IMG/VR virus record: IMGVR_UViG_3300022752_000374
Location: 1 to 24,772 of that record
Direction: 5' to 3' (one strand)
Source: a virus
Length of the DNA stretch: 24,772 bases
Made by a program: the position numbers and the translations under genes. Positions 6,232 through 24,312 of the stretch are shown in pieces; the first letter of the stretch is position 1; the number at the start of each line of letters is the position of its first letter. Under the pieces are notes generated by a model. The model did not search any database, had not been told where the DNA came from, and saw only the letters and a list, made by a program, of their open reading frames with translations.

Positions 6232-9200
6232 ATGCCCCTGTCACCTGCTGATTTTTATGCTTACAGCCGTGCAACAGGAGCTCCAGTTGCTGATACACCG
6301 GAAGATCGCGCTAAACAAGCACCTGAAGTCTTAGCGTTTCAACAAAATCGACTTCAAGCACCCAAACAGGGACCTGGGTTGCTTGATTTTTTGGGCGGCG
6401 CAGCCCTACTTGCTGGCGTTGGAGCAGGTGGTTATGGCATTGCTCGTGCAATGCGTAATCGCAACTTAGGCCAAACGGCAGCAAAAGTTGCAGTAGAAGA
6501 AATTACACCACAAGCCGTACAAAATGTACGTCGTGTTGCAGCTGCCGCACCCATTGCAGATCCCTGGGGACAAGGCAGTGTTCCTCAACCACCAAGTTCA
6601 CGTTATATTCCAAGTGCTCCTTGGTTTACAGAAGCAGCCGTTAAACCTTCAACGGTTGATTTAAATAAACAAATAACAACTTTAGTTGATTTTCAAAATG
6701 CACAAAAGCCGTTACACAACAATCAAATAGCTAACGCTATTAATGCAGCCGAAGATCAAATGACAGGTCGCATGAAGCACGCGCTTCAGCAAAACCCTCA
6801 TTTAGACATGAGTCAAATTGAAGTTTTAGAAGATATTGCTGAACACACTTATCGTTTGGGAATGGAACAAGATGAACCAATTAATTTAGCTGCTACACAA
6901 GTTATTGGTCATGTTCCCAATGATCAAGCTGAGAGCGCCGCTAATTTTGCGCAAGCTGCTGTACAAAAACAACGTGAATCTTTTTCTGGACTTGCAACAC
7001 CGGGTTCTGGTTTTAAAGCATTTAGTCAAAAGGCTACACGTTCTGAAAACCTTCGTAAACTTGCGGATGCAGTATGGGCACAAGAAGAATTATTAGAACA
7101 GTTAGGTGCGCAATCACGGGCAGAACAAGCCGCAAGAAATGTACCTAAAATTTATACTGCGCAAGATCTTACGGGCCTTATTAAAGTCCCTGGTAGAACA
7201 AAAGGTATTTCTTATGCAGAAAGTGCACTACCTTCTAGTTATGGTTTAAGCCATACAGAAGTGCGTGATCGCCTAATGGCTGCGGCTAGCGCTTCACCAG
7301 AAGAAGCTCAGTTGTTATTAAATCCTAATGTTCCAACTGAAAAAGTACGGCATTTATTAGGCACTACCGGCGGAATTAATCCAACTATGGAGATGCGGAC
7401 CCATGGTCAAATGGGCCCAACTGATTACGAAAGTTTTGCTACACGTCGCGTAGAAGAACAAGCAGGTCCAGAAGTTGCTCAAAAATTTTTAGAGCAGCGT
7501 CTTGGTACTGCTGGCACCGTTACTGGGATTCGTGAAGTAAATAATCCAGAATATGAAAATTTACTTTTTAATCATTTTATTCCTCATTGGGATGCAAATT
7601 CAGCAGAAGGTTATTATTCAGAAGGACAATTAATTAAAACAAATCCTAAATCTGGATTTTTACATCCGCGTAATACAACAGTTACGGCAGAAGATGTTAA
7701 ACGTTATGGATTAGATCCAGAGCGTTTGCATTCAAATATGTCGTTCATGGAACGCAAAGGTTTAGAGCAAAAAATTAATGAAGATTGGGATAAGGCTGGA
7801 ACTGGCCTTTATCTTTACGAACATGGAAAAGCACTTGGCATGCAAGATGTGCCACAAACCATTTTGCAAGAAAACCTTGGTCAACCCCTTATTGAAACTT
7901 TAGGATTTAAAGAACGGACCAATACCGGTACAACTTTTGTACCAGGTGAAGTGCAAGAAGTTGAAGGTATTCCAACTGCTTCTATTCGTCAAGAACGCAC
8001 TAAAGAAGGTGTTTTATATCCACGTTCCAATTTACTTGGGGAACAAAGTACCGGAGTTGAAGTCACTGCTAATCTTGAAAATCCATTCACTTTAGTTACT
8101 GAACCTATTACAAGTACAAAACTTATTGGTGGCTATGAAATTCCAGAAGCAACCCCACACTTCTTAACAGGTCCTGCCGTTGCTGGCAAACGTCCTGATA
8201 TTCAAATTAGTATTAAAGATAACGGCCAAATGGTGCCGGTTGTTAAAACACAAACCGAACATTTCCCTGTTAATCGTTTAGATCAAATTAAATATTTACC
8301 AGCAGAAGGTGCACATCAACCCGGTAGCCAAACAGTAAGCATTCAACCTTACATGGTTGGTGATTTAGTTGAACACGAAGGTCAAAACTTCGTTGTATCA
8401 AAACCAATTTATGGTCCGCTTATGAAACGGACTTCTGAAGGTTTAAAACCCACAACAGTTGATATTGCAGCACTTCAAAATGCTGCAGAAGTAGCTTCAT
8501 CCAAATGGAATAATCTAGGTCAAACCAAGTTGGATTATTTGGCTAATACTGGCGACGAAAGAGATCTAAATTATCTGGCAGACCATGGTTATGAAGTTAT
8601 TGAACAACGTTATCGAGATGGTCAAACTGTAAATAAAGCTGTTGCCGTTCGCAGTGATGCAACAGATCCCAACAAGCTTGGTGAGGCTTATCACCATACT
8701 GGTTACGTTGCCGATCAACTGCATCAACACTTATTAAACACACAAGGTATTGACTTACCTGTTCTTCAAGATCCTTCAGCTAAACATCAGTTTGTTGGTG
8801 ATGTTACAAATGTCACCGCTGAACGTAATGTTTATGGTTCGCCATATACCGGAGAAATTCAAAAAAAAGTAAAAGATCCGCTTAATTATGGACGTTATGG
8901 CCGCACCTGGGTAGAAGGTGAAGGTTATGCAACACAACAGCTGCCAGGCCGACATCGTCAACTTGGTTTGAGTGGTGCAGATCCAATGCAGTTTGAAGAC
9001 GCTGGTGAAGTTGTCGCCGAAGGCACTGGCGTTGCTTTTCACACACCTCGCGTACAAACAACCCCGGCTCGCGTGACTGGTGATGTACCGGCTTCACGTG
9101 TTTTACCTTCAGCAATTCCTTTGGGCCAAGCGCGTTCCAGGGAAGATATTGAAAACACTTTAATGAATCAAGCTGCCAACCGTCAAGAAATGATGGAAAC

Positions 9201-9591
9201 AGCACGACTAACTCCTGGTGGCCGCATAAATCCCGAAGCTCTTGAAAGTGAAACAGAAGTTCTTAATAAATATGGTATATCTTCTGCTAGGTTAATTGAA
9301 CAAGCCAATACTCAAATGGCGCGGTCTCAACAATTTTTAAATCAACTTCCTGGCGCACGCCGTGCTTTAACTGCACAACAACAAACTTTGACTTCAGATC
9401 AAGAACGTGCAAATGCAATGGCTCAACACTTAGCAAATTATATTTCGTCCGCTGCACAACGCGTAGAAGGTCCAATGAGCTGGAAAAGCGATGTTAAACT
9501 CAAAGGAGTTGGACAGAATCGTTTGATGCCATACGCATCTCCTTCTGAAGGAATGATTCAAGCCCTTATCAATAAAGCGCGTAATCGTTAA
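6232..9591 (+). CDS. Large virion protein, 1119 aa (ejection/internal candidate)
   Basis: The longest gene in the window, starting MPLSPADFYAYSRATGAPVA. A hydrophobic Gly/Ala-rich segment (LLDFLGGAALLAGVGAGGYG, about residues 50-69) lies near the N-terminus; the rest is Gln/Glu/Pro-rich with long helical stretches and no enzyme motif I can name. Codons are A/T-ending, unlike the capsid genes. It heads a run of Gly/Ala-rich late proteins upstream of the terminase, so an internal, possibly ejected, virion protein is the best inference. No peptidase or muramidase signature was recognised, and a tail or host-contact role is not excluded. Confidence 0.85.
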   Translation: MPLSPADFYAYSRATGAPVADTPEDRAKQAPEVLAFQQNRLQAPKQGPGLLDFLGGAALLAGVGAGGYGIARAMRNRNLGQTAAKVAVEEITPQAVQNVRRVAAAAPIADPWGQGSVPQPPSSRYIPSAPWFTEAAVKPSTVDLNKQITTLVDFQNAQKPLHNNQIANAINAAEDQMTGRMKHALQQNPHLDMSQIEVLEDIAEHTYRLGMEQDEPINLAATQVIGHVPNDQAESAANFAQAAVQKQRESFSGLATPGSGFKAFSQKATRSENLRKLADAVWAQEELLEQLGAQSRAEQAARNVPKIYTAQDLTGLIKVPGRTKGISYAESALPSSYGLSHTEVRDRLMAAASASPEEAQLLLNPNVPTEKVRHLLGTTGGINPTMEMRTHGQMGPTDYESFATRRVEEQAGPEVAQKFLEQRLGTAGTVTGIREVNNPEYENLLFNHFIPHWDANSAEGYYSEGQLIKTNPKSGFLHPRNTTVTAEDVKRYGLDPERLHSNMSFMERKGLEQKINEDWDKAGTGLYLYEHGKALGMQDVPQTILQENLGQPLIETLGFKERTNTGTTFVPGEVQEVEGIPTASIRQERTKEGVLYPRSNLLGEQSTGVEVTANLENPFTLVTEPITSTKLIGGYEIPEATPHFLTGPAVAGKRPDIQISIKDNGQMVPVVKTQTEHFPVNRLDQIKYLPAEGAHQPGSQTVSIQPYMVGDLVEHEGQNFVVSKPIYGPLMKRTSEGLKPTTVDIAALQNAAEVASSKWNNLGQTKLDYLANTGDERDLNYLADHGYEVIEQRYRDGQTVNKAVAVRSDATDPNKLGEAYHHTGYVADQLHQHLLNTQGIDLPVLQDPSAKHQFVGDVTNVTAERNVYGSPYTGEIQKKVKDPLNYGRYGRTWVEGEGYATQQLPGRHRQLGLSGADPMQFEDAGEVVAEGTGVAFHTPRVQTTPARVTGDVPASRVLPSAIPLGQARSREDIENTLMNQAANRQEMMETARLTPGGRINPEALESETEVLNKYGISSARLIEQANTQMARSQQFLNQLPGARRALTAQQQTLTSDQERANAMAQHLANYISSAAQRVEGPMSWKSDVKLKGVGQNRLMPYASPSEGMIQALINKARNR

Positions 9592-9812: not shown

Positions 9813-10415
9813 ATGCAAGGCACAGATGATCGTCTTGATTTAAACAAATATATTGGCGCCGTTAAAGATCCTAAAAACAAAACAAAAACAACATTTTCTG
9901 ATCAATTTAGAGTTGAAGCAAATTCTGGAATAGGTGGTCAATATCCTTGGGATCCAGGGCGGTTTAATACGTCTGATATTCTTAATCGTGTTCAATCACG
10001 TAAACGTACATTAAATGCTCATTTGGGCTCAGTAGATCCTGACGCACCGTTGGAAGCACAGCTGTTTATTGGCCTTGGTCGTTTTGTACGTCATACCGAC
10101 TATGACTTTCAAAAAGGACAACCAAACACTGCACACAAACCACAACAAAATCCGGATTTTAATCCCATCTGGCTGGATGCGTACAAAATCAGCCCTACTA
10201 TTCCTCCCAACAAAAGAGCAAAAGACCCTATGCCCAAAGCATCCAACCCCGATCCGCATGGATACATCATGCAAATGGCACAGTCACAAGCCGAGAATAC
10301 GGTTGATCCACAACCTTCTGTCGCCAATCTTCTTTCTAAATCTAAAAAACCACTACTCGAAAAAGAACTTAATACTGAAAAACCAGAAGAAGTATTTAAA
10401 TCACAAAATGCTTAG
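9813..10415 (+). CDS. Hypothetical 200-aa protein
   Basis: ATG immediately follows the previous TAA. Begins MQGTDDRLDLNKYIGAVKDP; the middle reads GGQYPWDPGRFNTSDILNRV and FIGLGRFVRHTDYDF; the C-terminal third is Pro/Lys-rich and probably disordered. No membrane segment. No family recognised; by position a late virion-related protein. A plus-strand frame overlapping it at 10069-10431 is a shadow. Confidence 0.75.
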   Translation: MQGTDDRLDLNKYIGAVKDPKNKTKTTFSDQFRVEANSGIGGQYPWDPGRFNTSDILNRVQSRKRTLNAHLGSVDPDAPLEAQLFIGLGRFVRHTDYDFQKGQPNTAHKPQQNPDFNPIWLDAYKISPTIPPNKRAKDPMPKASNPDPHGYIMQMAQSQAENTVDPQPSVANLLSKSKKPLLEKELNTEKPEEVFKSQNA

Positions 10416-10426
10416 GTTATCTGAAA

Positions 10427-10432
10427 TATAAT
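10427..10432 (+). promoter_or_regulatory. Late TATAAT box
   Basis: TATAATTAAAG begins 25 bp before the ATG of the next gene. One of a set of similar boxes before late genes (12092, 13563, 14059, 15003, 16066). No convincing -35. Confidence 0.4.
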
Positions 10433-10451
10433 TAAAGAAAAGTGTTGATAT

Positions 10452-11072
10452 ATGGCACCCAACGCCGCCACAAAAGGATTAGCAAGTAGTCTTAGAAACC
10501 TTGCAGGACGTTTGGGTCAAACCGGTATGCTTTCTGTTGCTGAACAAGCAGAGAAACAAGCTGTTAATAAAGCTCTTTTAGGTAGTTCAGTACCTGGTGC
10601 CATTATGGTGGCAGGGTTTAACATGCTTGGTGGTGTTGATCCAATGACTTCCCTTGCTGCTGGTGCAATGGATCTTGGCATCAATTATGGCGGCATGAAG
10701 CTTGCAGGAAGATTATCTCCTGGAAGGATGGGAACACTGTCGTATCAACAAGATGGCAAAACAGTTACCAAACAAGAGTTTATTCCTTCTAGGGCACAAG
10801 GAATTGTTCAAGGTGTATCGCCAATTATTTCCAGTATTGCTGCTATGCCAATGATTCAAAATTCTTTAATTCAAAAACAACAAGAAGACATGGATCAAAC
10901 TGTTTCAATGCAACAACAAGCATTACAACGTCAACTGGTTAATGGTTTGCAAGCACAGGCTTTATCTCCCGGCACTCAATTTCAAATGCAAGGATTAGAG
11001 CAGACGATTGATCCAAGTACGTTAATGGCAAATATGGCTGATCCCTATGGTTACGGACGAGGTGTAATTTAA
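10452..11072 (+). CDS. Gly/Ala-rich membrane-active virion protein candidate, 206 aa
   Basis: Starts MAPNAATKGLASSLRNLAGR. Residues about 45-85 form a Gly/Met/Ala hydrophobic stretch (SSVPGAIMVAGFNMLGGVDP then AAGAMDLGINYGGMKL), followed by a segment with SPIISSIAAMPMIQNS and a Gln-rich coiled C-terminus. Similar composition in the following genes suggests a set of internal virion proteins that insert into the host envelope during DNA delivery, as known for T7 and P22. No homology is claimed. Its TAA overlaps the next ATG. Confidence 0.7.
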   Translation: MAPNAATKGLASSLRNLAGRLGQTGMLSVAEQAEKQAVNKALLGSSVPGAIMVAGFNMLGGVDPMTSLAAGAMDLGINYGGMKLAGRLSPGRMGTLSYQQDGKTVTKQEFIPSRAQGIVQGVSPIISSIAAMPMIQNSLIQKQQEDMDQTVSMQQQALQRQLVNGLQAQALSPGTQFQMQGLEQTIDPSTLMANMADPYGYGRGVI

Positions 11073-12091
11073 TGCTATTACCGCAAAGTGTTATTGAATT
11101 TGGCCAAGCTCTAAAAAGAGGTTATAAAACTGGTGAACAAATTATGCAAGAAGCGGGTGATACCGCTGTGCATAGCATTTTTAATCCAGCATTTAATAAG
11201 GCATTAACAGCAGGGGCCCCTGGCAAAAGAGTTATTCAAGATGTGGAGGGTGTTCCCAGGCCCGTTCAACAGCCTGGGCGTGAGCCAATTACGGCTAAAG
11301 CCAATCCAGCAGAGTTTGCCGGAGCTTATGCCGCTAGATTAATCACTGATCTTGGCACTGACCAATCTCGTCGTTATTGGTGGAAATATAATAACCCACT
11401 AGCTATTTCTCAACAATTAATAGCTAAAACAGGAAAAGTTGGGGAACAAGTTTCACAAATGACACCAACCCAAAAGGGTTTGTTGGGTCTTGCAACGATG
11501 ACGCCTGTTGCTGCATCAATGGGTATTTATGATATTACCAATCCAGGTGAATTGTTTAGGCCAAAAGGTTTTGCTCAACAGTATGCAGAACCAGGCTCAG
11601 AAGATCGTCGTGAAACTGCTCAACCTGCGGAAGAATTATTTGAACGTTTCTTTTTGCAACGTCAAGGACAACCATTGAAATATGAAACAGCAAAACAAGA
11701 TATTCCTGATTTAACACCTCAAAGGTACGGTAATTTTATGCGTACTTATTACCAAGATAAAGGTTTATTAAATCTTGGTGTTTTAAAAGGAACCATGGAG
11801 AATCTTCAAGGCGTGCCGGAAGCGCGTCTTCTTGGATTCCCCATTACCATTCCATCGGCTGCTGCAACAGCCGGTGCAGCGGCCGGACTTGCTATGGCAG
11901 GCAGGCGTGGTGTTAGCCCTAATCGCACCATCTTGGCAGGCCTTGCTGGTTCTGTTGGTGGCGCTGCAATTGGTAATGTGGTCAATGAAGTTATTGCAAT
12001 GGCTAACCGCCCTAAACTTCCTGACTTACATGATTATCAAGAACACTACAGTACAGTTCCCCTGGATCCAACACAACAAAATATAGGCTGA
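11072..12091 (+). CDS. Virion protein with glycine-zipper segment, 339 aa
   Basis: ATG overlaps the previous TAA (TAATG). The N-terminal part is helical (MLLPQSVIEFGQALKRGYKT); an aromatic cluster RRYWWKYNNPL lies near residue 100; a hydrophobic run GLLGLATMTPVAASMGIYDI is at about 136-155. A long Ala/Gly zipper region (PSAAATAGAAAGLAMAGRRG, TILAGLAGSVGGAAIGNVVN) at about 261-305 looks membrane-active. An ejection or pore-forming internal virion protein is inferred from composition and neighbours; no family named. Confidence 0.7.
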   Translation: MLLPQSVIEFGQALKRGYKTGEQIMQEAGDTAVHSIFNPAFNKALTAGAPGKRVIQDVEGVPRPVQQPGREPITAKANPAEFAGAYAARLITDLGTDQSRRYWWKYNNPLAISQQLIAKTGKVGEQVSQMTPTQKGLLGLATMTPVAASMGIYDITNPGELFRPKGFAQQYAEPGSEDRRETAQPAEELFERFFLQRQGQPLKYETAKQDIPDLTPQRYGNFMRTYYQDKGLLNLGVLKGTMENLQGVPEARLLGFPITIPSAAATAGAAAGLAMAGRRGVSPNRTILAGLAGSVGGAAIGNVVNEVIAMANRPKLPDLHDYQEHYSTVPLDPTQQNIG

Positions 12092-12097
12092 TAAAAT
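12092..12097 (+). promoter_or_regulatory. Late TAAAAT box
   Basis: TAAAATTAAAA begins 30 bp before the ATG at 12122. Member of the late-gene box set. Confidence 0.35.
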
Positions 12098-12121
12098 TAA
12101 AACATATAGAAGACTAAAAAC

Positions 12122-12991
12122 ATGGCAGGTCCTTACGCTTTTCCAACGGATCCGATGATGGGGCCATCATCTCCTATTGATCGTATTAGCGCAAAAAATA
12201 CTGTTTTTGATCCTAAAAATCGCACAGTAGCTGATATTACTTCGCCTGTTAATCCTGCCGGTCCATTTGATGCCTTGCTTCAAAATGTTTCGAATTTAAC
12301 ACAAACAGTTGGAGAAATGCCGGGCGGAGTCCGAACTCTTGCATCCAGAACAGCTCGTTATGCTCCCGGCGCTGCAACCGCTCTTCAACAGTTTCCAACA
12401 GATCCTCTCGCAGGTATTGCAACTCTTGGTCTTACTGCTTTAGGCGGTAAAGGGATTCAAAATTTAAGTGCAATGGTACCCGGCGGCCCTTTGGCTCGTG
12501 GCGCTGTTCAACTTGCGGGCGGCTTGCTTGCTGCTCCAATTGCAGGCCAACTTGGTAAAGGTGTTTCCGCACTTGGTAATCAACTTATCGGTGGCGCTCA
12601 AGCTGCTACGCAAGGTGTTGTGAGCGCTGTAGCCGGCGCACAACGCGAATCTGGCCAAGCTGCTGGTACAGGCACACAACCCGGTGTACCCACTGACCAG
12701 GCAATGGCACGTCAGCTTGAAATTCTTAAGCAAGTAGGGGTTAATATTCCTGGTCAATATTTAACCCAAAACTATCAAATTTTACAAAAATATAAAGATG
12801 CTGATGTTTCGCGTCAAATGCAACTGAATCAACAAAATGCTCAATTAATGGGTCAATTAAATCAACAGATTATTGCAGGTCAACTTGCTTCTGGTGCCCA
12901 GGCGCAAGCTGGTGCAACAACCCGTGACATCTTGACTTCTAATCCTTACGCTGCTTCTGTGCTTAATACCGGCGCTGTTCGTGGTATTTAA
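12122..12991 (+). CDS. Gly/Ala-rich virion protein, 289 aa
   Basis: Starts MAGPYAFPTDPMMGPSSPID. The central region is glycine-zipper-like (GIATLGLTALGGKGI, RGAVQLAGGLLAAPIAGQLG, GGAQAATQGVVSAVAGAQ), suggesting amphipathic membrane-associating helices. The C-terminal third is Gln-rich with heptad-like spacing (QMQLNQQNAQLMGQLNQQII). No known domain. Part of the run of similar proteins from 10452 to 14055; probably an internal virion component. Confidence 0.7.
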   Translation: MAGPYAFPTDPMMGPSSPIDRISAKNTVFDPKNRTVADITSPVNPAGPFDALLQNVSNLTQTVGEMPGGVRTLASRTARYAPGAATALQQFPTDPLAGIATLGLTALGGKGIQNLSAMVPGGPLARGAVQLAGGLLAAPIAGQLGKGVSALGNQLIGGAQAATQGVVSAVAGAQRESGQAAGTGTQPGVPTDQAMARQLEILKQVGVNIPGQYLTQNYQILQKYKDADVSRQMQLNQQNAQLMGQLNQQIIAGQLASGAQAQAGATTRDILTSNPYAASVLNTGAVRGI

Positions 12992-12993
12992 TT

Positions 12994-13476
12994 ATGGGAT
13001 TTGATATTGCTAAACAATATGCTGCAGATGCACCGGCATTGGCCGGACGCGGTGCTTATGGCTTTGCGCCAATTGCTGGTTCTTCCAATCTGTTTAGTGC
13101 CACTACGCCAATTGCCGGTTCTTGGCAAGACGCTTTAAATAAAGTAATGAGTAGCCAAGATCCTTTTGGCGCTGCAGCTGCTTATGGCATTATGTCTAAT
13201 CTTGATCCACAACGCCAAAATGAATTACGCAAACAACAGCTAGCAGATGCTGCTGCTTTTTATAAAGAGCAGGGTGATCAACAAATGAAATATAACTTAA
13301 TTAATCGTGGTTTAACCGCATTGCAAACAGGCCTGGAACGCGGCCTGACCCCATATCAAGATCCCTATTCAATTGCCAATATGATTGCAAACGGTTACGC
13401 TGAAGGAGCAAGATCTAGTGCAGGCTTGGCGCAACTTGGGGCAGGCATTCCAACCCGGCAATACTATCGCGCCTGA
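12994..13476 (+). CDS. Hypothetical late protein, 160 aa
   Basis: Starts MGFDIAKQYAADAPALAGRG two bases after the previous stop. Ala/Gly/Tyr-rich, with a helical middle (RNELRKQQ-type Gln/Arg stretch, LADAAAFYKEQGDQQMKY). No membrane segment of full length. No family recognised. It ends the transcript unit before a 123-bp gap that carries a new TATAAT box. Confidence 0.7.
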   Translation: MGFDIAKQYAADAPALAGRGAYGFAPIAGSSNLFSATTPIAGSWQDALNKVMSSQDPFGAAAAYGIMSNLDPQRQNELRKQQLADAAAFYKEQGDQQMKYNLINRGLTALQTGLERGLTPYQDPYSIANMIANGYAEGARSSAGLAQLGAGIPTRQYYRA

Positions 13477-13562
13477 TAACATCTAATTTTTATTTAAATA
13501 CACATAGGCATAGCACTGCTTGCGCTAATTATTGCGTTCAAATTTAAACAATACAATTCAAG

Positions 13563-13568
13563 TATAAT
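13563..13568 (+). promoter_or_regulatory. Late TATAAT box in a 123-bp gap
   Basis: A perfect TATAAT in an AT-rich gap between 13476 and 13600, 31 bp before the next ATG. A TTCAAA upstream is spaced about 20 bp, longer than usual for a sigma70 promoter, so the -35 is doubtful. Confidence 0.45.
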
Positions 13569-13599
13569 AATTATAAAGTTCTAATAGCGGCAAAACAAT

Positions 13600-14055
13600 A
13601 TGCTTATTGGACCCGAGCTAGCTTTTGCGGGTATTAGTTCCGCAATTGGGGGCATTGCTTCTGGCTATGGCGCCAGTCGGCAGGCAAATGCGATGATTCA
13701 AGCTGCGGGCATTCAAGCCCAAGCGCAGCGTGATGCCGCATTCCAAAACCTTCTTGCTGGTCAGTATGCGTTAACAGGTGCTAAGCAGTTTGACAGATTA
13801 GAGCAACAAAAAGCTGCAGACTATCAACAGGCTTTTTTAGACCCACGTACTAGTCAACTTACTTCTGAAGATCGTCAACGTGGCATCACAGATATGCTTT
13901 CCCCTGGGGCACAAAAACTACGTTGGCAGCAAAATACAGATCAATTAAATCGTACACTTGCTGAACAACGTGCACGAACTGACGCAATGTTTGGCCCAGT
14001 TGCGGAACGTCCTTTTGCATATGGCAATATGCCCGGCTATGCAGCGGGTTCATAG
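13600..14055 (+). CDS. Internal virion protein candidate, 151 aa
   Basis: The N-terminus MLIGPELAFAGISSAIGGIA followed by SGYGASRQANAMIQAA has a Gly/Ala hydrophobic segment and then a Gln/Ala-rich helix. This layout, a short hydrophobic glycine zipper followed by a long Gln-rich helix, is seen in several short-tailed phage internal proteins. The C-terminal half is helical (QQNTDQLNRTLAEQRARTDA). Function is inferred from this resemblance and from the neighbours; no named family is claimed. Confidence 0.65.
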   Translation: MLIGPELAFAGISSAIGGIASGYGASRQANAMIQAAGIQAQAQRDAAFQNLLAGQYALTGAKQFDRLEQQKAADYQQAFLDPRTSQLTSEDRQRGITDMLSPGAQKLRWQQNTDQLNRTLAEQRARTDAMFGPVAERPFAYGNMPGYAAGS

Positions 14056-14058
14056 GTT

Positions 14059-14064
14059 TAAAAT
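14059..14064 (+). promoter_or_regulatory. Late TAAAAT box
   Basis: TAAAATTAAAG begins 31 bp before the ATG at 14090, just after the stop of the preceding gene. Confidence 0.35.
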
Positions 14065-14089
14065 TAAAGTAACTAATAGGTAACACAAC

Positions 14090-14989
14090 ATGGGTAGCGG
14101 TGGTGGCGGAACAACAATTAATGCTCCAGGACCCGATCCTTCTCAGGTTGCTTACAACAACTACATGTTGGAGCACCAAAAACGTCTTGATGCACAAGCA
14201 GAAGCCGCTGCCGCAGAAGAAAAAGCTAATTTAGCTGCCGTCAAATCCACTGGTACTGCTGGTTATAACACATATCGCCAAAACCTTTTAAATCAATTTA
14301 ACGCCGGTTTAATCAATGATCAACAAGCTGTACAACAACTTAAAGACTACGAAGATCGCTATAAGCTGGGAACGGGTTATACACAATCTGATATTAATAG
14401 TTTTGTTGAGCAGGCCACACAAGGGGCTGCGGGTAAATATGCAACGCTTGCGGGCCAAACCTATAAAGACATCTTGGGCCGTGAAGCAACACAGGCAGAG
14501 CTTGATAGTTTTGCAAACTTACAAAAAACTGGACAATACAAATTAACTGACCTTGTTAGTTCAATTAAAGCCGGCAGTGAATACCAGAACAAATTTAACG
14601 ACAATTATTTAAGCAATTATTACGACACAATGTATGGTAAACAGGAAACTACAACAGACGAAAAAGGACAAACCATTAAAACAGGCAAACGCACCTTTAC
14701 ATACAACACTGCTTTAGACCCCACTTTTACGGGTGATATTGCTAAAGCCACTGGCGTAACGGGCCCAGCTGCAGCAACATCAATCACTGGTACGCCCGCC
14801 GAAATTGAAGAGTATCAGCAAGCAATGCGTCAAAAACGTGATTTTATGTATAACGCTGGTCTGACCAATTTGCAAGGCCAGATTGATAAAGACACGCAAA
14901 AAATCAAGAATGAAGGCGCTGCAGATGTTGCTAAAATTAGTACGCAAGGACAGTTGTTGTCTAATTTAACCGCAGGGTTCTGGTCTTAA
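14090..14989 (+). CDS. Virion structural protein with DUF4214-like segment, 299 aa
   Basis: Starts MGSGGGGTTINAPGPDPSQV. An N-terminal Ala/Glu helical region is followed at about residues 124-168 by TYKDILGREATQAELDSF and KLTDLVSSIKAGSEYQNKF. This matches the DUF4214 pattern (Y.DILGR.A...EL..F ... L...I..S.EYQ), a repeat found on phage and bacterial surface or structural proteins. The C-terminal half has a short Thr/Lys-rich stretch and a final helix. It likely sits in the virion; the exact position is unknown. Confidence 0.75.
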   Translation: MGSGGGGTTINAPGPDPSQVAYNNYMLEHQKRLDAQAEAAAAEEKANLAAVKSTGTAGYNTYRQNLLNQFNAGLINDQQAVQQLKDYEDRYKLGTGYTQSDINSFVEQATQGAAGKYATLAGQTYKDILGREATQAELDSFANLQKTGQYKLTDLVSSIKAGSEYQNKFNDNYLSNYYDTMYGKQETTTDEKGQTIKTGKRTFTYNTALDPTFTGDIAKATGVTGPAAATSITGTPAEIEEYQQAMRQKRDFMYNAGLTNLQGQIDKDTQKIKNEGAADVAKISTQGQLLSNLTAGFWS

Positions 14990-16943: not shown

Positions 16944-18470
16944 ATGCCTTCTTACGTTCATCTCGCATATCGGCGTAATGCACGTGCGGCGGCAAAAAGT
17001 CATCAAATCAAAGAGCCTAAAAATTACGAGCAGGCAAAACTTGCACGTGAAGACTTTGGTTATTTTTGTGATTATGTAGCCGATAAACCTCCGGCTGCCC
17101 ATCATAAAGAATGGCATCGTCACTTTGTTACGGGTGAAGACAGTAACTGTTTGATTAAAATTGCTGGTCCAAATGTTGATCTATTGGCTCCCCGTGGATC
17201 AGCAAAAAGTACAGTTCTTGGACTTTTAACTGCATGGGCAATCGGCATTCATACAGAAGCCAAACTTCCCTTGCAGATTCTCTATCTTTCTTATACCGTT
17301 GATATTGCACGTTCTAAATCTGCAACCATCAAACGAATCATTGAAAGTAAACGATATCAAGAAGTTTTCCCCAAGGTACGACTTCTCAAGAATGTAACAA
17401 GCAATGAGTATTGGTCAATTGATCATAAATTTGCTGGCATTGATGTAACAGGTGATGAACAGTTTACGCTTTGCGCCGCAGGCCTTAAAGGTTCAGTGAC
17501 TTCTAAGCGTTCACATTTAGTAATGATTGATGACGCTATTAAGTCTGCTGCTGATATTGGTAATCCTGACATTCGTAAGACAATGCAGGATAACTGGAAC
17601 GCAGTGATCGCACCAACTATGTTTGAAGGCGCTAGAGCCATTTGTCTTGGTACTCGTTTTAGGCACGATGACATTCATGCCACTACCTTTAACGAACAAA
17701 ATAACTGGACGCAAATTGTTTTGTCAGCAATTCAAAACAATCCCAAAACAGGTGAAGAGGAATCCTACTGGCCTGATATGTGGTCGCTAGAGTACCTAAA
17801 AGAAAAGAAACGGCAAGCTCCAATTGCTTTTTCTTTTCAATACATGAATCAAATTGTCAGGCAAAATGAACTCTCATTGGCGCCAGAACTTATTGTTAAG
17901 GCAGAAATTGCAACAGAGTTTGATGCCCTGGGCGTTGGTGTTGACTTGTCTGCAGGTGTTAAAGAGAAGAATGATTACACGGTGTTTGTATTGGGTGGTC
18001 GGATTGAGGATCGTATCCATATTATTGATTATCGACGTATTCGCGTCATGGGGAACTTGGAAAAACTAGATGCCCTTAAAGAATTACTTAATGATTGGTC
18101 TATTATCGGACAAGATGAAAATAAAAATTATTTCCCTACTTATTCAACATGTGATGTTTGGTCAGAAGCTGTCCAATACCAGGCTTCTCTCGAAGCTGAC
18201 TTTAAGCGGGTCTGCTTGAATGACGAAGGTCTCTACAATTTGATTTGGCATCCAGTCAAAGGATTCCGTGCAGATAAGCTCGCACGGTTCAGGGGAATTA
18301 TTGGTATGTTTGAAGATCGAAAAATTATCTTTAATCGTTTCCGGAATTTCACAAATCTCTTCGAGGAACTCACAAATTTCGGTGTAAGTGGCCATGATGA
18401 CTGTGTCGATGCTCTCGTTTGGTTAGTTACTGGATTAGCAAGGAAAGGCAATTTACATCTTGATTACTGA
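16944..18470 (+). CDS. terL: Terminase large subunit (packaging ATPase-nuclease)
   Basis: 508 aa, usual length for TerL. The N-terminal ATPase has a Walker A APRGSAKST (residues 82-90), Walker B LVMIDDA (192-198) and the coupling motif GTRF (236-239). The C-terminal RNase H-like nuclease has acidic residues in GVDLSAG (D334), NDYTVFV (D344), CDVW (D404) and GHDDCVDA (D485, D486, D489). It pumps DNA into the prohead through the portal and cuts the concatemer. Start codon directly follows a hairpin with no Shine-Dalgarno. The 3' end overlaps the next gene by 11 nt. Confidence 0.97.
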   Translation: MPSYVHLAYRRNARAAAKSHQIKEPKNYEQAKLAREDFGYFCDYVADKPPAAHHKEWHRHFVTGEDSNCLIKIAGPNVDLLAPRGSAKSTVLGLLTAWAIGIHTEAKLPLQILYLSYTVDIARSKSATIKRIIESKRYQEVFPKVRLLKNVTSNEYWSIDHKFAGIDVTGDEQFTLCAAGLKGSVTSKRSHLVMIDDAIKSAADIGNPDIRKTMQDNWNAVIAPTMFEGARAICLGTRFRHDDIHATTFNEQNNWTQIVLSAIQNNPKTGEEESYWPDMWSLEYLKEKKRQAPIAFSFQYMNQIVRQNELSLAPELIVKAEIATEFDALGVGVDLSAGVKEKNDYTVFVLGGRIEDRIHIIDYRRIRVMGNLEKLDALKELLNDWSIIGQDENKNYFPTYSTCDVWSEAVQYQASLEADFKRVCLNDEGLYNLIWHPVKGFRADKLARFRGIIGMFEDRKIIFNRFRNFTNLFEELTNFGVSGHDDCVDALVWLVTGLARKGNLHLDY

Positions 18471-18942: not shown

Positions 18943-19254
18943 ATGTATTACCAAGGCGAATCTAATGTCCCTGGCGCACCTGGTAATTTGGCGCAGGGCA
19001 TCCCCGTGGGACAAGATCCCCGATTCCCAATGCCGCAAGAAGTTTTTCATCAATATGTAGATGAACGTCGTACCCCAAAACTTCTTGCTCCATATGGCGG
19101 AAGTATGTTGGAAATGATTCGCCAAACCCAGGGTAGATCTCCTCAGGCGCAACTTGCACCTGGTGTTGCCCCGATGGGAAATGCTGGCTTCTTCTATGGT
19201 CCCCAGCTTGGACAAGGTGTTCCCCCTGGATATCAATCTAAAACGGTGTCATGA
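18943..19254 (+). CDS. Pro/Gly-rich late protein, 103 aa
   Basis: The ATG at 18943 (MYYQGESNVPGAPGNLAQGI) is preferred over an adjacent TTG. Rich in Gly, Pro and Gln, with QDPRFPMPQEVFHQYVDERR and FFYGPQLGQGVPPGYQSK. The end resembles the FYMGPQAGQGYF region of the capsid protein at about 23951 only in composition. No family. Its TGA overlaps the ATG of the next gene (ATGA), indicating coupling. Confidence 0.7.
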   Translation: MYYQGESNVPGAPGNLAQGIPVGQDPRFPMPQEVFHQYVDERRTPKLLAPYGGSMLEMIRQTQGRSPQAQLAPGVAPMGNAGFFYGPQLGQGVPPGYQSKTVS

Positions 19255-19397
19255 CCAAGAAAAAAAAGTTGATTAAAGAAGCGCTTAAAAAGCCTTGGCT
19301 TTATACGTTTGGTGAGTTAGCTTTTTTTCGGCTTTGGTTAAAACATAGAAAGGAACGCAAAGCTGCTAAGATTCAAAAAGAACAGGTTAAAGATTAA
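19251..19397 (+). CDS. Small basic protein, 48 aa, coupled to portal
   Basis: Reads MTKKKKLIKEALKKPWLYTF, then GELAFFRLWLKHRKERKAAK and IQKEQVKD. ATG overlaps the upstream TGA (ATGA) and its TAA overlaps the portal ATG (TAATG), which strongly supports it in spite of its length. Very basic, with a Trp/Phe-rich middle. Function unknown; it may bind DNA or the portal, by position only. Confidence 0.75.
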   Translation: MTKKKKLIKEALKKPWLYTFGELAFFRLWLKHRKERKAAKIQKEQVKD

Positions 19398-21745
19398 TGG
19401 CTGTTGATACCAAGGCGCGGTTAAAAGAAATTATTGACGCTGCGGTCGAAAAAGATCCTGGTGCTCATGTTGACACCATGATTGTGGGCTCGCATCTTGC
19501 CCAAATGAAGATGTTTGGGATTCGTCAAGGTGTTGAATTTTTTCCAACTCAAGATAACTTTGGCAATCAACGCAAAGATTTTCTCGACCGTGTAATCAAG
19601 TACAACCAATTAGATGTGCGTCTGGATTCTATCTGGGATTATTTCTTGTGTGATGGCAAAGGCATTTTTTATATTCGACCTACTAAAGCCAACTATCGTC
19701 TTTATTACTTCCGCAGTCATGAATACCGTAGTTATTACAACGTTGACGGCGAACTGGACGAAGTTGTAATCATCTACAGCTACAAAGTTAAACAAGGCAA
19801 TGGGTTTGGCGATAATGTAAACGTCTCCAATCTTACTGGGACAGCAACCCTTGGCAGTCAAGGTGCCAAACGTTTTATTCGTCTTTCCATTAAACGACGC
19901 ACCATTGAAGAAACTCACTCTGAAAGTGAGATGTCATTTGATTTGCCAAACTATACGGCTCTTGGCAAAACTAAAACGTTTAAAAATAGTTTAGGTTTTA
20001 TTCCTTGTGTTGAAATTTTTAATAACCCAAAAGGTTTCTCAACTGAAGGCACCGGCGAATTTGATGCCATGGCCAGCCACATTGTGGTGCATGACGAATT
20101 AGTTCGCACCATGCGTAAAAACGTTCAGTTCTTTGGTAACCCAACCCTTCTTTCGTCTCGTCCCAAAACAGACCTTATGGAGTCTGGTGCGGATACCACC
20201 GTTCAACGTCCATCTATTGCAGCCAATTCTGGATTCGGCAGTTTGTCTGCATTAAGCCGTTCTACGTTTAAGCAAGATCCAATTGGTCGCGGCATTGACG
20301 GTCAAATTCGTGTGCCACGCGTCATTGCAAACTTAGAACCTAACGATCGAGTTGGTTATATTGTTCCAGATGCTATTACTGGCGATCAAAATGCATTTGC
20401 TCGTCAATTTAGAGAAGAAATTCGTACCGCACTTGGTGGTGTGGATGAGCTTTCAATTTCAGCGGGCGTTACCGCAACTGAGTACAAATCGTTATTTGGC
20501 CGTGTTTCTGCAACATCAAAGAAAAAAGCAACTGCCATTTATTCGTATGGCATTGCACGTTGTCTTGAATTAATTATTTTTCAAGAAGAACGTTTATTCC
20601 GTGCAACGTTAGCCAAAGCTTCTGGCTTGGAAGAGCCTATTGAGCCACCAGAAGATGCGCCTGCCGAAGAAAATGAACTGTACAAGCAGGCAATGATTGG
20701 GTTTGACGAGAAAGTCAAGCAGATCATGATGGCTTGCATGGAAACAAAAATTGTTCCTCCCGGTGTTACTGGACTTATTCCGGATGGAGACCTGACAGTG
20801 TTATGGCGTTGGACGGGTCCGGTATATGAAGAGTCAACTCAAGATGTTCTTAACAACTCAATTGTTGTAAGAAACCTACAAGAATTAGGTGTTGATAGCA
20901 TTGAAGCACTGAAGTTCTTATTTCCGTCTAAGACGGATGAAGAGCGAGCCGCAATGCTAAGCGGTTTCCCGTTCAGGATGGTGGGCGAATTGCAAAATGC
21001 GTTTTCGCAATTTGCTCGCCTGGTGGGTGGAATGATGCAGACCCCTCACCCAGAGTCACCGGATCTTCCGATGGCTGCGGATCCAAGGCTGGACCTTACC
21101 CCCTATCTGTATCGAACCTTAGAAGCATTACAAAAGGAGATGAGTTATGCAGGACGCTACCGTCCAATCGACCCCACAGACGAGCCAAGCACCGTCAGTA
21201 GCGCCAAGCAGCTACGTGATGGCAGCTCCAGCTCCAGTGGCGGCACCAGCCCCCAGTTACCAACAAGCAGCACCGGTGGCGTATCAGGTGGGTACCAGCT
21301 ACCCGCAAGCGGTCCCTCAAGCGACTACCAGCTACCAATCCGCCCCTACTCAGTACGCCCCCCAATCCCAACCGAATTATTCGGTGGCAGCGCCAGCGGA
21401 AGCACCGGCGACCAATCCATGGGAATCGGCGTTCAACAAGGTGGTGGGGCTGCTGAGCTCACCAGTCCAATCCCCCTTCCAGGCTCAACCATCGACGACG
21501 ACACCTCAGTACGCCCCGGCCAACTTTGGGACTCCCAGCGCCCAAGTTACGCCACAATTGGGGACGCCGACCTCATATCCCAGCCCGGAATCTTATCTCA
21601 ACTCTTCCCTAATCTCTTCAACGCCCTTACCGGCGGCGGAAGCCCAGGAAGTGGACCGGGCAATCGCGGATTATTACCACCTGAGCAACGAAACCCGTCA
21701 GGTGTTCGACGCGTTCGGTCCAGAAGCTCCAGCAATTCTAAATAA
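19397..21745 (+). CDS. Portal protein (head-tail connector), 782 aa with overprinted C-terminus
   Basis: Forms the ring through which DNA is packaged. Recognised from EFFPTQDNFGNQRKDF, the 'DYFLCDGKGIFYIRP' and RLYYFRSHEYRSYYNVDGEL region, the crown-type ALGGVDELSISAGVTATEYK and the long helix with KKKATAIYSYGIARCLELII. The first about 583 residues are standard; the last about 199 are Ser/Gly/Pro-rich and share the DNA with the first about 200 codons of the scaffold gene in another frame. The extension keeps a C-ending, RNY-like codon pattern, which supports real coding. TAATG overlap with the upstream gene. Confidence 0.92.
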   Translation: MAVDTKARLKEIIDAAVEKDPGAHVDTMIVGSHLAQMKMFGIRQGVEFFPTQDNFGNQRKDFLDRVIKYNQLDVRLDSIWDYFLCDGKGIFYIRPTKANYRLYYFRSHEYRSYYNVDGELDEVVIIYSYKVKQGNGFGDNVNVSNLTGTATLGSQGAKRFIRLSIKRRTIEETHSESEMSFDLPNYTALGKTKTFKNSLGFIPCVEIFNNPKGFSTEGTGEFDAMASHIVVHDELVRTMRKNVQFFGNPTLLSSRPKTDLMESGADTTVQRPSIAANSGFGSLSALSRSTFKQDPIGRGIDGQIRVPRVIANLEPNDRVGYIVPDAITGDQNAFARQFREEIRTALGGVDELSISAGVTATEYKSLFGRVSATSKKKATAIYSYGIARCLELIIFQEERLFRATLAKASGLEEPIEPPEDAPAEENELYKQAMIGFDEKVKQIMMACMETKIVPPGVTGLIPDGDLTVLWRWTGPVYEESTQDVLNNSIVVRNLQELGVDSIEALKFLFPSKTDEERAAMLSGFPFRMVGELQNAFSQFARLVGGMMQTPHPESPDLPMAADPRLDLTPYLYRTLEALQKEMSYAGRYRPIDPTDEPSTVSSAKQLRDGSSSSSGGTSPQLPTSSTGGVSGGYQLPASGPSSDYQLPIRPYSVRPPIPTELFGGSASGSTGDQSMGIGVQQGGGAAELTSPIPLPGSTIDDDTSVRPGQLWDSQRPSYATIGDADLISQPGILSQLFPNLFNALTGGGSPGSGPGNRGLLPPEQRNPSGVRRVRSRSSSNSK

Positions 21746-22169
21746 TTACGCTCTTCAACTTGAAGGGATGCTGGATAGTGCAGTGGCCTGGGGCGCCCAA
21801 GCCAATGATGTGATGGGTCGTTTTGCCAACTTCTCGGTCAATGAGCACCAAGAAAACCTGGCTTATAACGAAATTCTGACCAACCCCGATGTTCTTAGCG
21901 ATTACACGCTGAAATTCTTTGGTCCTGAAGGTCCGTACCCTGTGTACGAAAACGAAGCTGAGCTTAGCTCCCGTGGTTATCGCACTCAACCCATCGGCGG
22001 TGGTATTGCCGAGCTCCCTGCTCCCCCCAACGCCGCTGGCCCCCAGCAACCAGAAAACTTCTGGGGTAACTTTAGCGAAGTGATGAATCGTGATCCCCAG
22101 AACGCCTGGCGTGTCCTGAATCAAGCTCAACCCGGAACCGTTGCAAACAAACTGTTTGTGATGGAGTAA
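21147..22169 (+). CDS. Scaffold-type / capsid assembly protein, 340 aa
   Basis: A strong AAAGGAG lies seven bases before the ATG. The N-terminal 200 residues are Pro/Ala/Gln/Tyr-rich and disordered (PVAAPAPSYQQAAPVAYQ). The C-terminal part is helical (QEVDRAIADYYHLSNETRQV, LNNYALQLEGMLDSAVAWGA) and ends VANKLFVME. Position between portal and major capsid, disordered N-terminus and helical, charged C-terminus fit an internal scaffold that directs coat assembly. The reading frame is +1 relative to the portal, whose tail overlaps it by 599 nt. C-ending codons, as in the coat gene. Followed by a terminator. Confidence 0.8.
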   Translation: MQDATVQSTPQTSQAPSVAPSSYVMAAPAPVAAPAPSYQQAAPVAYQVGTSYPQAVPQATTSYQSAPTQYAPQSQPNYSVAAPAEAPATNPWESAFNKVVGLLSSPVQSPFQAQPSTTTPQYAPANFGTPSAQVTPQLGTPTSYPSPESYLNSSLISSTPLPAAEAQEVDRAIADYYHLSNETRQVFDAFGPEAPAILNNYALQLEGMLDSAVAWGAQANDVMGRFANFSVNEHQENLAYNEILTNPDVLSDYTLKFFGPEGPYPVYENEAELSSRGYRTQPIGGGIAELPAPPNAAGPQQPENFWGNFSEVMNRDPQNAWRVLNQAQPGTVANKLFVME

Positions 22170-22322: not shown

Positions 22323-24312
22323 GTGTTTATTGATAGCTAGTTCAGATCCTGGTAGGTGTGTCCTTTTAGGATTTGGTAAATAGCTCCGTGATTACAGTTA
22401 AATTTTTCGGCAATCTTTCTATATGAAAGTCCAGCCTCTTTCAAAGATTTAATTTGCATCACGTCTTCCGAAGAAAACTTTCTCAAAGACTTCTTCGGCT
22501 TTCCTTTACTGGCAAAACCATTATTTTGGTAGCAACCAGATTCCCAAGCCCTCGTTAAATTCTCTTGTTTGGTAACAATTTCTAGATTCTCAAGTTGATT
22601 ATTCCGTTTGTTTTTATCTAAGTGATTTACCTGAAGAGAAAAGTTATGACTGCCATGGGACCTTGGATCTAAACCAAGAAAGGCAATTGCCATTAACACG
22701 TGTAAATGAAAACGTTTCTTTCTTCCATTTACAAGAACTGAAACTCTGTCATATGCACTGGTCGAACTAATAGGAAGTTCTTCAAGTTCTTCTTGATCCT
22801 GTTCATTAAGTTTTTTCTTAAAAGCTCGACCGTCTTCTGTTAAGTAAAGGTTACCAAACCCAGGTACAAGTTTTGGTTCCATGTTGTTTATCAACATTTT
22901 TCCAAAGCATAGCATGCCTCAACTGAACGCTCAACGTTGTCACCTCACCGAGCAATCGATGAGTGCAAACCGGATGAATTCAGGGAAGCCCTAACGTAAA
23001 GCCGAGGGTAATCCTGAGCCAAGCCAATCAAGATCGTGATTGGAAGGTGCAGAGACTACTGGGGGTAACACGCACTTGTTACGTAATACCAGATTTAGCG
23101 TCCGGCATCCCACAGGGATGAAGAGATAGTCCACCCCTCTAAGAAACTAGAGACCAGGAGAACGATTTTCCAAAAATCTTGGGTGCGGAACTCTATCGTC
23201 CTCACCCCGCCTACATTGCCGAGATGGCTGTGGAGCCCGTGGTTGTCCACGACTTCACCCGTCAACCCGGTCAAACCGTGCAGCTCGACCGCTATAAGTT
23301 CTGGGGAACCCCTGGCACGAAGGATAGCCGCGAGCGTATTGCCGACCAAACCATTGGTACTGCTAACAGCCGCAACATCACCAAGGAGAAAGTCCTGGTG
23401 GTGCTTAAGGAATACACTGGTCCTGCCGATCCGGGCGATCCGACTCAGCCTTCTACCTTCAAGATTGCTCGTGAAACCCTGATTACCGCCCAGCGTCTGC
23501 TGCTGGACACCGGTAACCTGAACATGTTCCACCAGTCCATCGGCAGCCTCACCCTGCTGGATGACTACCGTCGTTGGCGCGACCGCGTCTTCATTGACGA
23601 ACTGTCCAAAGCTGAAGCCAACGGCCAAGCTTCTACCACCCAGGGCGGTTACTACTTCGCTGGTAACAAAGCCAAAGATTCCTCTGGCCGTGTTTCCTAC
23701 ACTGCCACTGAATATGGCGCGCAAGTTCAACAGTTCCAAGTCCGTACTGACTTGCTGAACGTTGTTAAAGACCTGCGTAAGCGCAACGTGCCGACCTATT
23801 CCGATGGTCTGTATCGTTGCATCTGCGATCCTACTTTCATGCTGCACCTGCGGCGTGATCCTGACTTCCGTGAGATCGCTCGTTACGCTGGCAATCCTGG
23901 TCAGGGGATGTACATGGGCAACCCTGCGATGCCCAACAACTCCAGCTTCTACATGGGTCCCCAAGCTGGCCAAGGTTATTTCCTGGCTGGTGAACCTGTC
24001 ATGCCGACCGGCGTGCAGTTTGAAGGTGTGAAGTTCTTCGAGTCGACCAACTTCCCCACCAAGACCCTGAGTGCATCTTTCGACGGTGGTTCCAACTATT
24101 CGACTCAAGAAGTTGCCCAAGGTTACTTCTTTGGTCCTCAAGCCATCGGCGTCGGTATTGGTGGTCCTAACGCCCAAGTGCTGATCAACAATAACGATGA
24201 CTTCAGCCGCTTTATCATTCTGATTTGGCAGCTGTACGCTGGTTTTGAAATCCTGAACAAAGATTTCGTCACCACCGGTTTCAGCTTCATTCAAGACGAC
24301 GGTATCGTTTGA
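22323..24312 (+). CDS. Major capsid protein, split by a group I intron
   Basis: Proposed exon 1 is GTG TTT ATT GAT (22323-22334), preceded by GGAGG ten bases upstream; exon 2 is 23161-24312. Joined product is about 387 aa and begins MFIDNDFPKILGAELYRPHP. The protein has GRYKFW-type LDRYKFWGTPGTKDSRERIA, LLDDYRRWRDRVFIDELSK, and coat-like ending LIWQLYAGFEILNKDFVTTG. It is the abundant head shell protein by position (after scaffold) and composition; codons are strongly C-ending. Without splicing, the frame ends after five codons (MFIDS, TAG). The exact splice bases are inferred. Confidence 0.85.
22337..22882 (-). CDS. HNH homing endonuclease, antisense inside the intron
   Basis: Start taken as the ATG at 22880-22882 (MEPKLVPGFGNLYLTEDGRA), with alternative in-frame ATGs at 22897 and 22915; about 181 aa. 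The nuclease core is FHLHVLMAIAFLG (His59, His61), VNHLDKNKRNN (Asn86, His87, Asp89) and LENLEIVTKQENLTRAW, the HNH_3 arrangement. The C-terminal helix-turn-helix is SSEDVMQIKSLKEAGLSYRK with IYQILKGHTYQDL (about 138-180). It makes a cut at intronless alleles so that the intron copies in. Stop is three bases inside the intron. Opposite orientation to its host gene is unusual. Confidence 0.93.
   Translation of the reverse strand: MEPKLVPGFGNLYLTEDGRAFKKKLNEQDQEELEELPISSTSAYDRVSVLVNGRKKRFHLHVLMAIAFLGLDPRSHGSHNFSLQVNHLDKNKRNNQLENLEIVTKQENLTRAWESGCYQNNGFASKGKPKKSLRKFSSEDVMQIKSLKEAGLSYRKIAEKFNCNHGAIYQILKGHTYQDLN
22906..22934 (-). promoter_or_regulatory. Candidate promoter of the antisense HNH gene
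   Basis: On the minus strand TTGAGC (22929-22934), a 17-bp spacer, then TATGCT (22906-22911) with an upstream TGC. It overlaps the candidate P2 strand CTGAAC (22923-22928). Only fair matches to consensus, but spacing and place are right. Confidence 0.4.

Follow-up and report, generated by a model that had tools for sequence, protein, structure and literature searches.

Background

Long out-of-frame overlaps between genes are usually associated with small RNA and single-stranded DNA viruses, and those of double-stranded DNA viruses are mostly of a few nucleotides. In phage lambda, the Nu3 scaffold is initiated from its own Shine-Dalgarno sequence within the preceding head gene, C, and the lysis gene Rz1 is embedded or partly embedded in Rz in the +1 frame. 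The scaffold gene of T7- and P22-like phages is located between the genes of the portal and the major capsid protein (MCP), and the T7 scaffold, gp9, is strongly acidic. Sense overlaps in the +1 frame are a common class with a median length of 14 nt, and among overlaps shared across families at 95% identity the longest reported has 185 nt (Munoz-Baena and Poon 2022, PMC8903798; Schlub and Holmes 2020, PMC7017920). In the GenBank record of Synechococcus phage S-EIV1 (KJ410740; AHV82224-AHV82225), a 767-aa 'hypothetical protein' includes the portal tail discussed below, annotation of the scaffold gene that follows is confined to its 3' part, and the overlap between the two is unmarked. Here we describe the corresponding locus in a relative of this phage.

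The head gene module and its products

The window (the whole stretch of DNA that was analysed, 24,772 nucleotides) is a fragment of a virus of the S-EIV1 lineage of cyanobacterial viruses. Homologs of TerL, portal, scaffold and MCP are present in the same order in the window and in S-EIV1, with amino acid identities of 81% for TerL, 81% for the portal core, 64% (64-67%) for the scaffold and 86% for MCP. The head module consists of TerL (16944-18470), small ORFs, the portal gene, a second ORF and the MCP gene, which contains a group I intron. On the + strand, the portal ORF (19397-21745) encodes 782 aa, comprising a core (residues 1-583; 19397..21145) and a Ser/Gly/Pro-rich C-terminal tail (residues 584-782, 199 in all; 21146..21745 with the stop codon). 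The second ORF (21147..22169, + strand) encodes a putative scaffolding protein of 340 aa in frame +1 to the portal, so that 599 nt (21147..21745) appear to be read twice. Elsewhere in the window, a 1119-aa ORF (6232-9591) has no PHROG or Pfam match and is followed at 9813-14989, upstream of the terminase, by several unmatched ORFs. In GTDB, a bacterial MAG from Lake Lanier includes a contig of an S-EIV1-like phage (RFNU01000069).

IMG/VR was searched for relatives with the portal and the scaffold as queries, with a degenerate DNA pattern and by walking from the most divergent member. The most distant relatives reached have a portal-core identity of 76% or more, or are S-EIV1 itself.

A first, sequence-only reading of the window had named the two products portal and scaffold. 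The former label is supported by PHROG_64, the position behind the terminase and weak fold matches; the latter is suggested by gene order and acidity, with no family match. The portal protein matches PHROG_20475 'virion structural protein' (E 3e-289) and the PHROG_64 portal family (E 5e-4; 9 of 17 relatives match at E 0.1 or less), and no Pfam match was found for it. The six best PDB matches of its structure model (mean pLDDT 35) are portal or tail-complex entries at E 0.009 or worse, the best fold matches being T7-type portals, also weak. Its gene follows TerL and precedes MCP (22323-24312). The AlphaFold models of both proteins have mean pLDDT values of 35-36, too poor for claims of disorder or fold.

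The second ORF lies between the portal and MCP genes, and its product is acidic in 170 of 170 relatives (pI 4.05-4.58); from this gene order and acidity, the protein is most likely a scaffold. No family or structure match was found for it in PHROG, Pfam or PDB, so the protein is named for its presumed function and not as a member of a known family. Both ORFs might code and the second specify something else, such as a minor capsid or internal protein, as the missing scaffold match and the low confidence of its structure model would allow; but the location corresponds to that of the scaffold gene in T7- and P22-like phages, the strong acidity is like that of T7 gp9, and the C-terminal half is predicted, at low confidence, to be mostly helical, all of which make this alternative rather unlikely.

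Reading frames across the overlap

Past the ATG of the scaffold at 21147, the portal frame continues open for 199 codons (584-782), just as the sequence-only reading had it, with the scaffold in the +1 frame. The overlap was intact in 170 of 170 distinct complete relatives by a first count, with lengths of 497-662 nt, and these loci represent 66 clusters at 90% and 18 clusters at 80% nucleotide identity of the overlap. With more distant members added, it is kept in 188 of 189 distinct relatives (497-668 nt). The sole exception, IMGVR_UViG_3300047546_001245, has TAG in place of a TAC codon in the portal tail, 8 nt from the contig end, which is probably a contig-edge error; apart from this TAG, no early portal stop, which would have spoken against the overlap, was found among the 189. 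The scaffold frame, for its part, is closed by a stop codon shortly before its ATG in the relatives (median distance, 2 codons). Across the overlap in the 170 relatives, the third sense frame contains 4-11 stops per relative, and two of the three antisense frames carry stops in every relative.

Openness of the portal frame was compared with a resampling null in 14 genomes, in which scaffold-synonymous codons were drawn from the usage of the gene outside the overlap. In these trials the portal frame stayed free of stops at a rate of 0-0.24% (0-0.02% in all but one of the genomes), with 5.7-10.8 stops expected. When the codons of the overlap itself were permuted, it was open in 0.2-9% of trials per genome. 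These per-genome chances do not simply multiply, because the genomes share ancestry. Chance openness of the portal frame is excluded.

The RNY, C-ending codons of the portal tail, offered by the sequence-only reading as a sign of coding, turned out to be circular evidence, since the third positions of the tail are the second positions of scaffold Pro, Ala, Ser and Thr codons: C occupies 48% of either. The portal core is T-ending (39% T and 20% C at third positions).

The portal stop codon is found at two main places and has shifted its position within the scaffold gene over evolution. The short form of the protein ends near ...RRSK, and the long form has about 22 extra residues, ending in GQRRRVGKPRK; relatives L021, L035 and L059 differ in this respect from L014, L046 and the window.

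Selection on the two frames

Within the overlap, scaffold codon positions 3, 2 and 1 are portal positions 1, 3 and 2, respectively. Close pairs of sequences differ at scaffold positions 1, 2 and 3 with frequencies of 0.014, 0.042 and 0.071 in the overlap and of 0.013, 0.008 and 0.166 past the portal stop; thus, change at position 3 is reduced, and change at position 2 increased, only in the stretch that doubles as portal sequence. In pairs of 93-98.5% identity, substitutions that are silent in the scaffold and change the portal number 0.082 per site in the overlap versus 0.219 past the portal stop, and those that are silent in the portal and change the scaffold number 0.046 versus 0.017. Changes that create stop codons are rare (0.006 per site).

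In close pairs, the dNN/dSN ratio of the portal is 0.25 (0.16-0.37) and, within the overlap, the dNN/dNS ratio of the scaffold is 0.14 (CI 0.09-0.21), these intervals being from a codon bootstrap only; sequence pairs are non-independent. Control ratios, all from the same identity band, were 1.68 for the third frame of the overlap, 0.69 (CI 0.41-1.32) for a phantom portal frame past the portal stop, and 0.82 for a phantom frame in the portal core. At larger divergence, with saturation, the portal ratio climbs to 0.50 and then to 0.67, nearing the portal-core control (0.74-0.80), so the two-frame claim rests on close pairs and on the contrast within the gene. Suppressed synonymous change in both frames, which the sequence-only reading had predicted, is borne out by the dual-frame substitution classes and by the contrast between codon positions. 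Judged by these substitution patterns, purifying selection maintains both frames of the overlap.

An RNA or DNA element, such as a structure or a packaging signal, might suppress synonymous change in place of a second protein, and the block of sequence around the scaffold start is indeed fixed at the nucleotide level; but the suppression depends on codon position exactly as the portal frame predicts, and no unusual RNA folding was detected in the region of the scaffold start (z 0.55), which leaves this explanation with hardly any credibility. Almost as hard to credit is the arrangement implied by the S-EIV1 annotation, in which the portal alone codes across 21147-21745, the second protein starts past the portal stop (as MLDSAVAW..., about 133 aa) and the frame upstream is accidental. 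The methionine at that annotated start (scaffold residue 208) is invariant, as this arrangement would have it, but it leaves unexplained the strong purifying selection on the scaffold frame in the overlap (the ratio of 0.14), the scaffold segment PWESAFNKVV, which is almost unchanged while scaffold-silent sites vary, and the invariant Shine-Dalgarno sequence and ATG, with the frame's stop codon so shortly upstream.

Constraint on the two frames was also compared along the overlap in windows of 45 nt. For the most part the scaffold frame is held more tightly, most clearly at 21417..21461 (PWESAFNKVVGLLSS), where changes that affect the scaffold and are silent in the portal are nearly absent (SN 0.003 versus NS 0.167). 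Over 21552..21641 (ATIGDADLISQPGILSQLFPNLFNALTGGG), the portal is constrained no less than the scaffold: portal-silent changes equal or exceed scaffold-silent ones in frequency, and in the first half (21552-21596; ATIGDADLISQPGIL) the portal is the more constrained frame. In the adjoining segment, QLFPNL, the constraint is common to both frames. Where the portal dominates, the scaffold is of low-complexity Ser/Thr/Pro composition and motifs of the portal tail are still conserved, and the first 45 nt of the overlap are almost frozen in both frames. Protein alignments agree with this pattern.

Greater constraint on the scaffold over most of the overlap is what would be expected if the scaffold alone were functional there, the portal tail being tolerated read-through without a role or being removed by proteolysis. 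The low-complexity Pro/Ala/Ser-rich scaffold, which lowers the frequency of stop codons, and the basic end of the tail, which largely follows from the scaffold frame (see below), are further points for it. We nevertheless consider it improbable, given the strong suppression of scaffold-silent sites, the rarity of stop-creating changes, the portal dNN/dSN of 0.25-0.50 at low divergence and the portal-dominant segment at 21552-21596.

Start signals and expression

The strong Shine-Dalgarno sequence to which the sequence-only reading had pointed, AAAAGGAG, is located inside the portal gene (21132-21139, + strand), 7 nt before the scaffold ATG at 21147, and was found in 170 of 170 relatives, portal-synonymous sites included. 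Nearly all relatives have the block TACAAAAGGAGATGAGTTATGCAGGAC unchanged, again with its portal-synonymous sites, and 162 of the 170 share an identical TACAAAAGGAGATGAGTTATGCAGGACGCT block. A strong Shine-Dalgarno sequence is absent from the portal start, which is preceded by GGAG in only 8 of 145 relatives and overlaps the stop codon of an upstream 48-aa ORF (19251..19398, + strand; TAATG). This suggests that initiation of the portal is coupled to the 48-aa ORF and weaker, and the start signals would fit low, coupled synthesis of the portal together with high, independent synthesis of the scaffold. The message would be read from the portal start, with its weak Shine-Dalgarno sequence, through to 21745 to give a portal with a 199-residue tail, and ribosomes would separately initiate at the invariant strong Shine-Dalgarno sequence at 21132, in the +1 frame, to give the acidic 340-aa protein. 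No proteomics or ribosome profiling of the portal and scaffold products was found in the literature searched; translation of both ORFs is predicted from the sequence features above. Taken together, the locus is very probably a genuine same-strand dual-coding overlap, in which the portal is read through, the scaffold is initiated internally and both are under selection.

The portal tail and the origin of the overlap

Because the portals of tailed phages point their C-termini towards the inside of the capsid, the portal tail is probably a flexible (disordered) arm inside the procapsid that may contact scaffold, internal proteins or DNA. Its C-terminal end is basic in all relatives, with a net charge of +3.8 to +9.8. 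A docking site for the acidic scaffold at this basic end was considered and set aside, as about 60% of the charge is forced by the scaffold frame: a null that keeps the scaffold protein gave a mean net charge of +4.4 versus +7.3 observed. The basic end is mostly a by-product: when reading is shifted to one base earlier, the GAN codons for acidic residues yield Arg or Gly codons.

Extension of the portal into an existing scaffold gene seems likelier than the reverse, given that the end of the portal core coincides with the start of the scaffold. A portal stop codon near 21150 would have been lost and the portal thereby extended into the pre-existing scaffold gene. Codon usage was uninformative as to which frame is older (-0.31 versus -0.38 per codon). 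Scans of viral and genome contigs and tblastn searches against phages reached no relative without the overlap. More tentatively, the portal may have gained a 200-residue interior arm with an essential function, the docking of scaffold or internal proteins at the portal vertex, by reading through the front half of the scaffold gene; we regard this as a possibility worth stating, although the odds are somewhat against it. If it were so, two assembly partners of the portal vertex would share nucleotides, with constraint alternating between them.

The major capsid protein gene

The MCP gene (22323..24312, + strand; PHROG_1357 major head protein, E 1e-15) has a GTG start and is interrupted, 12 nt into the gene, by a group I intron (22335-23160; Rfam RF00028, 92.5 bits), the opposite strand of which encodes an HNH endonuclease (22337-22915). 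The splice junction agrees with intron-less relatives, which read straight through; one relative (L148) appears to carry an intron in its MCP gene as well. For S-EIV1 (KJ410740 60784-61545, corresponding to 8248-9009 of locus L081), GenBank has a hypothetical protein on the wrong strand in place of the front of the MCP gene and gives what remains of the gene as a short CDS of its own. A 399-codon ORF also runs antisense to the capsid gene of the window (23095-24294, - strand); it is probably an effect of codon bias, an artefact of the same type as that which misled the S-EIV1 annotation.

Comparison with known overlapping genes

S-EIV1, in which gene order is alike, contains the same overlap, of 554 nt, on re-reading of its sequence. 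Its record is an example of how automated annotation truncates such overlapping genes. The overlap also draws attention to a hitherto undescribed extension of the portal, which may have a role in assembling the capsid. No earlier report of an out-of-frame portal/scaffold overlap was found in the literature covered, which excludes the S-EIV1 genome paper. A phage lineage with genomes of about 80 kb (79 kb in S-EIV1) retains a 600-nt overlap across many aquatic cyanophages, and the locus offers a natural laboratory for the sharing of sequence by two proteins.

The sequence-only reading had called overlaps of this size rare in tailed phages, in accord with the published statistics: the overlap in the window exceeds the +1 median of 14 nt about 40-fold, and the largest shared one is 185 nt. 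If the portal did gain a functional interior arm as suggested above, the overlap would rank with the longest out-of-frame ones that a tailed-phage lineage has fixed between genes for head morphogenesis. As in lambda C/Nu3, the scaffold start is internal to the preceding gene, but Nu3 is in frame with C and shares its amino acids, whereas the pair in the window is read in different frames and yields unrelated proteins. Rz/Rz1 is likewise a tailed-phage gene pair that overlaps out of frame on one strand, with both products in use; the pair in the window differs in that two head-morphogenesis genes share about 200 codons. Overlap between genes is a familiar phenomenon; in the window, two morphogenesis genes are overprinted over a long stretch, and the arrangement is fixed in the lineage.
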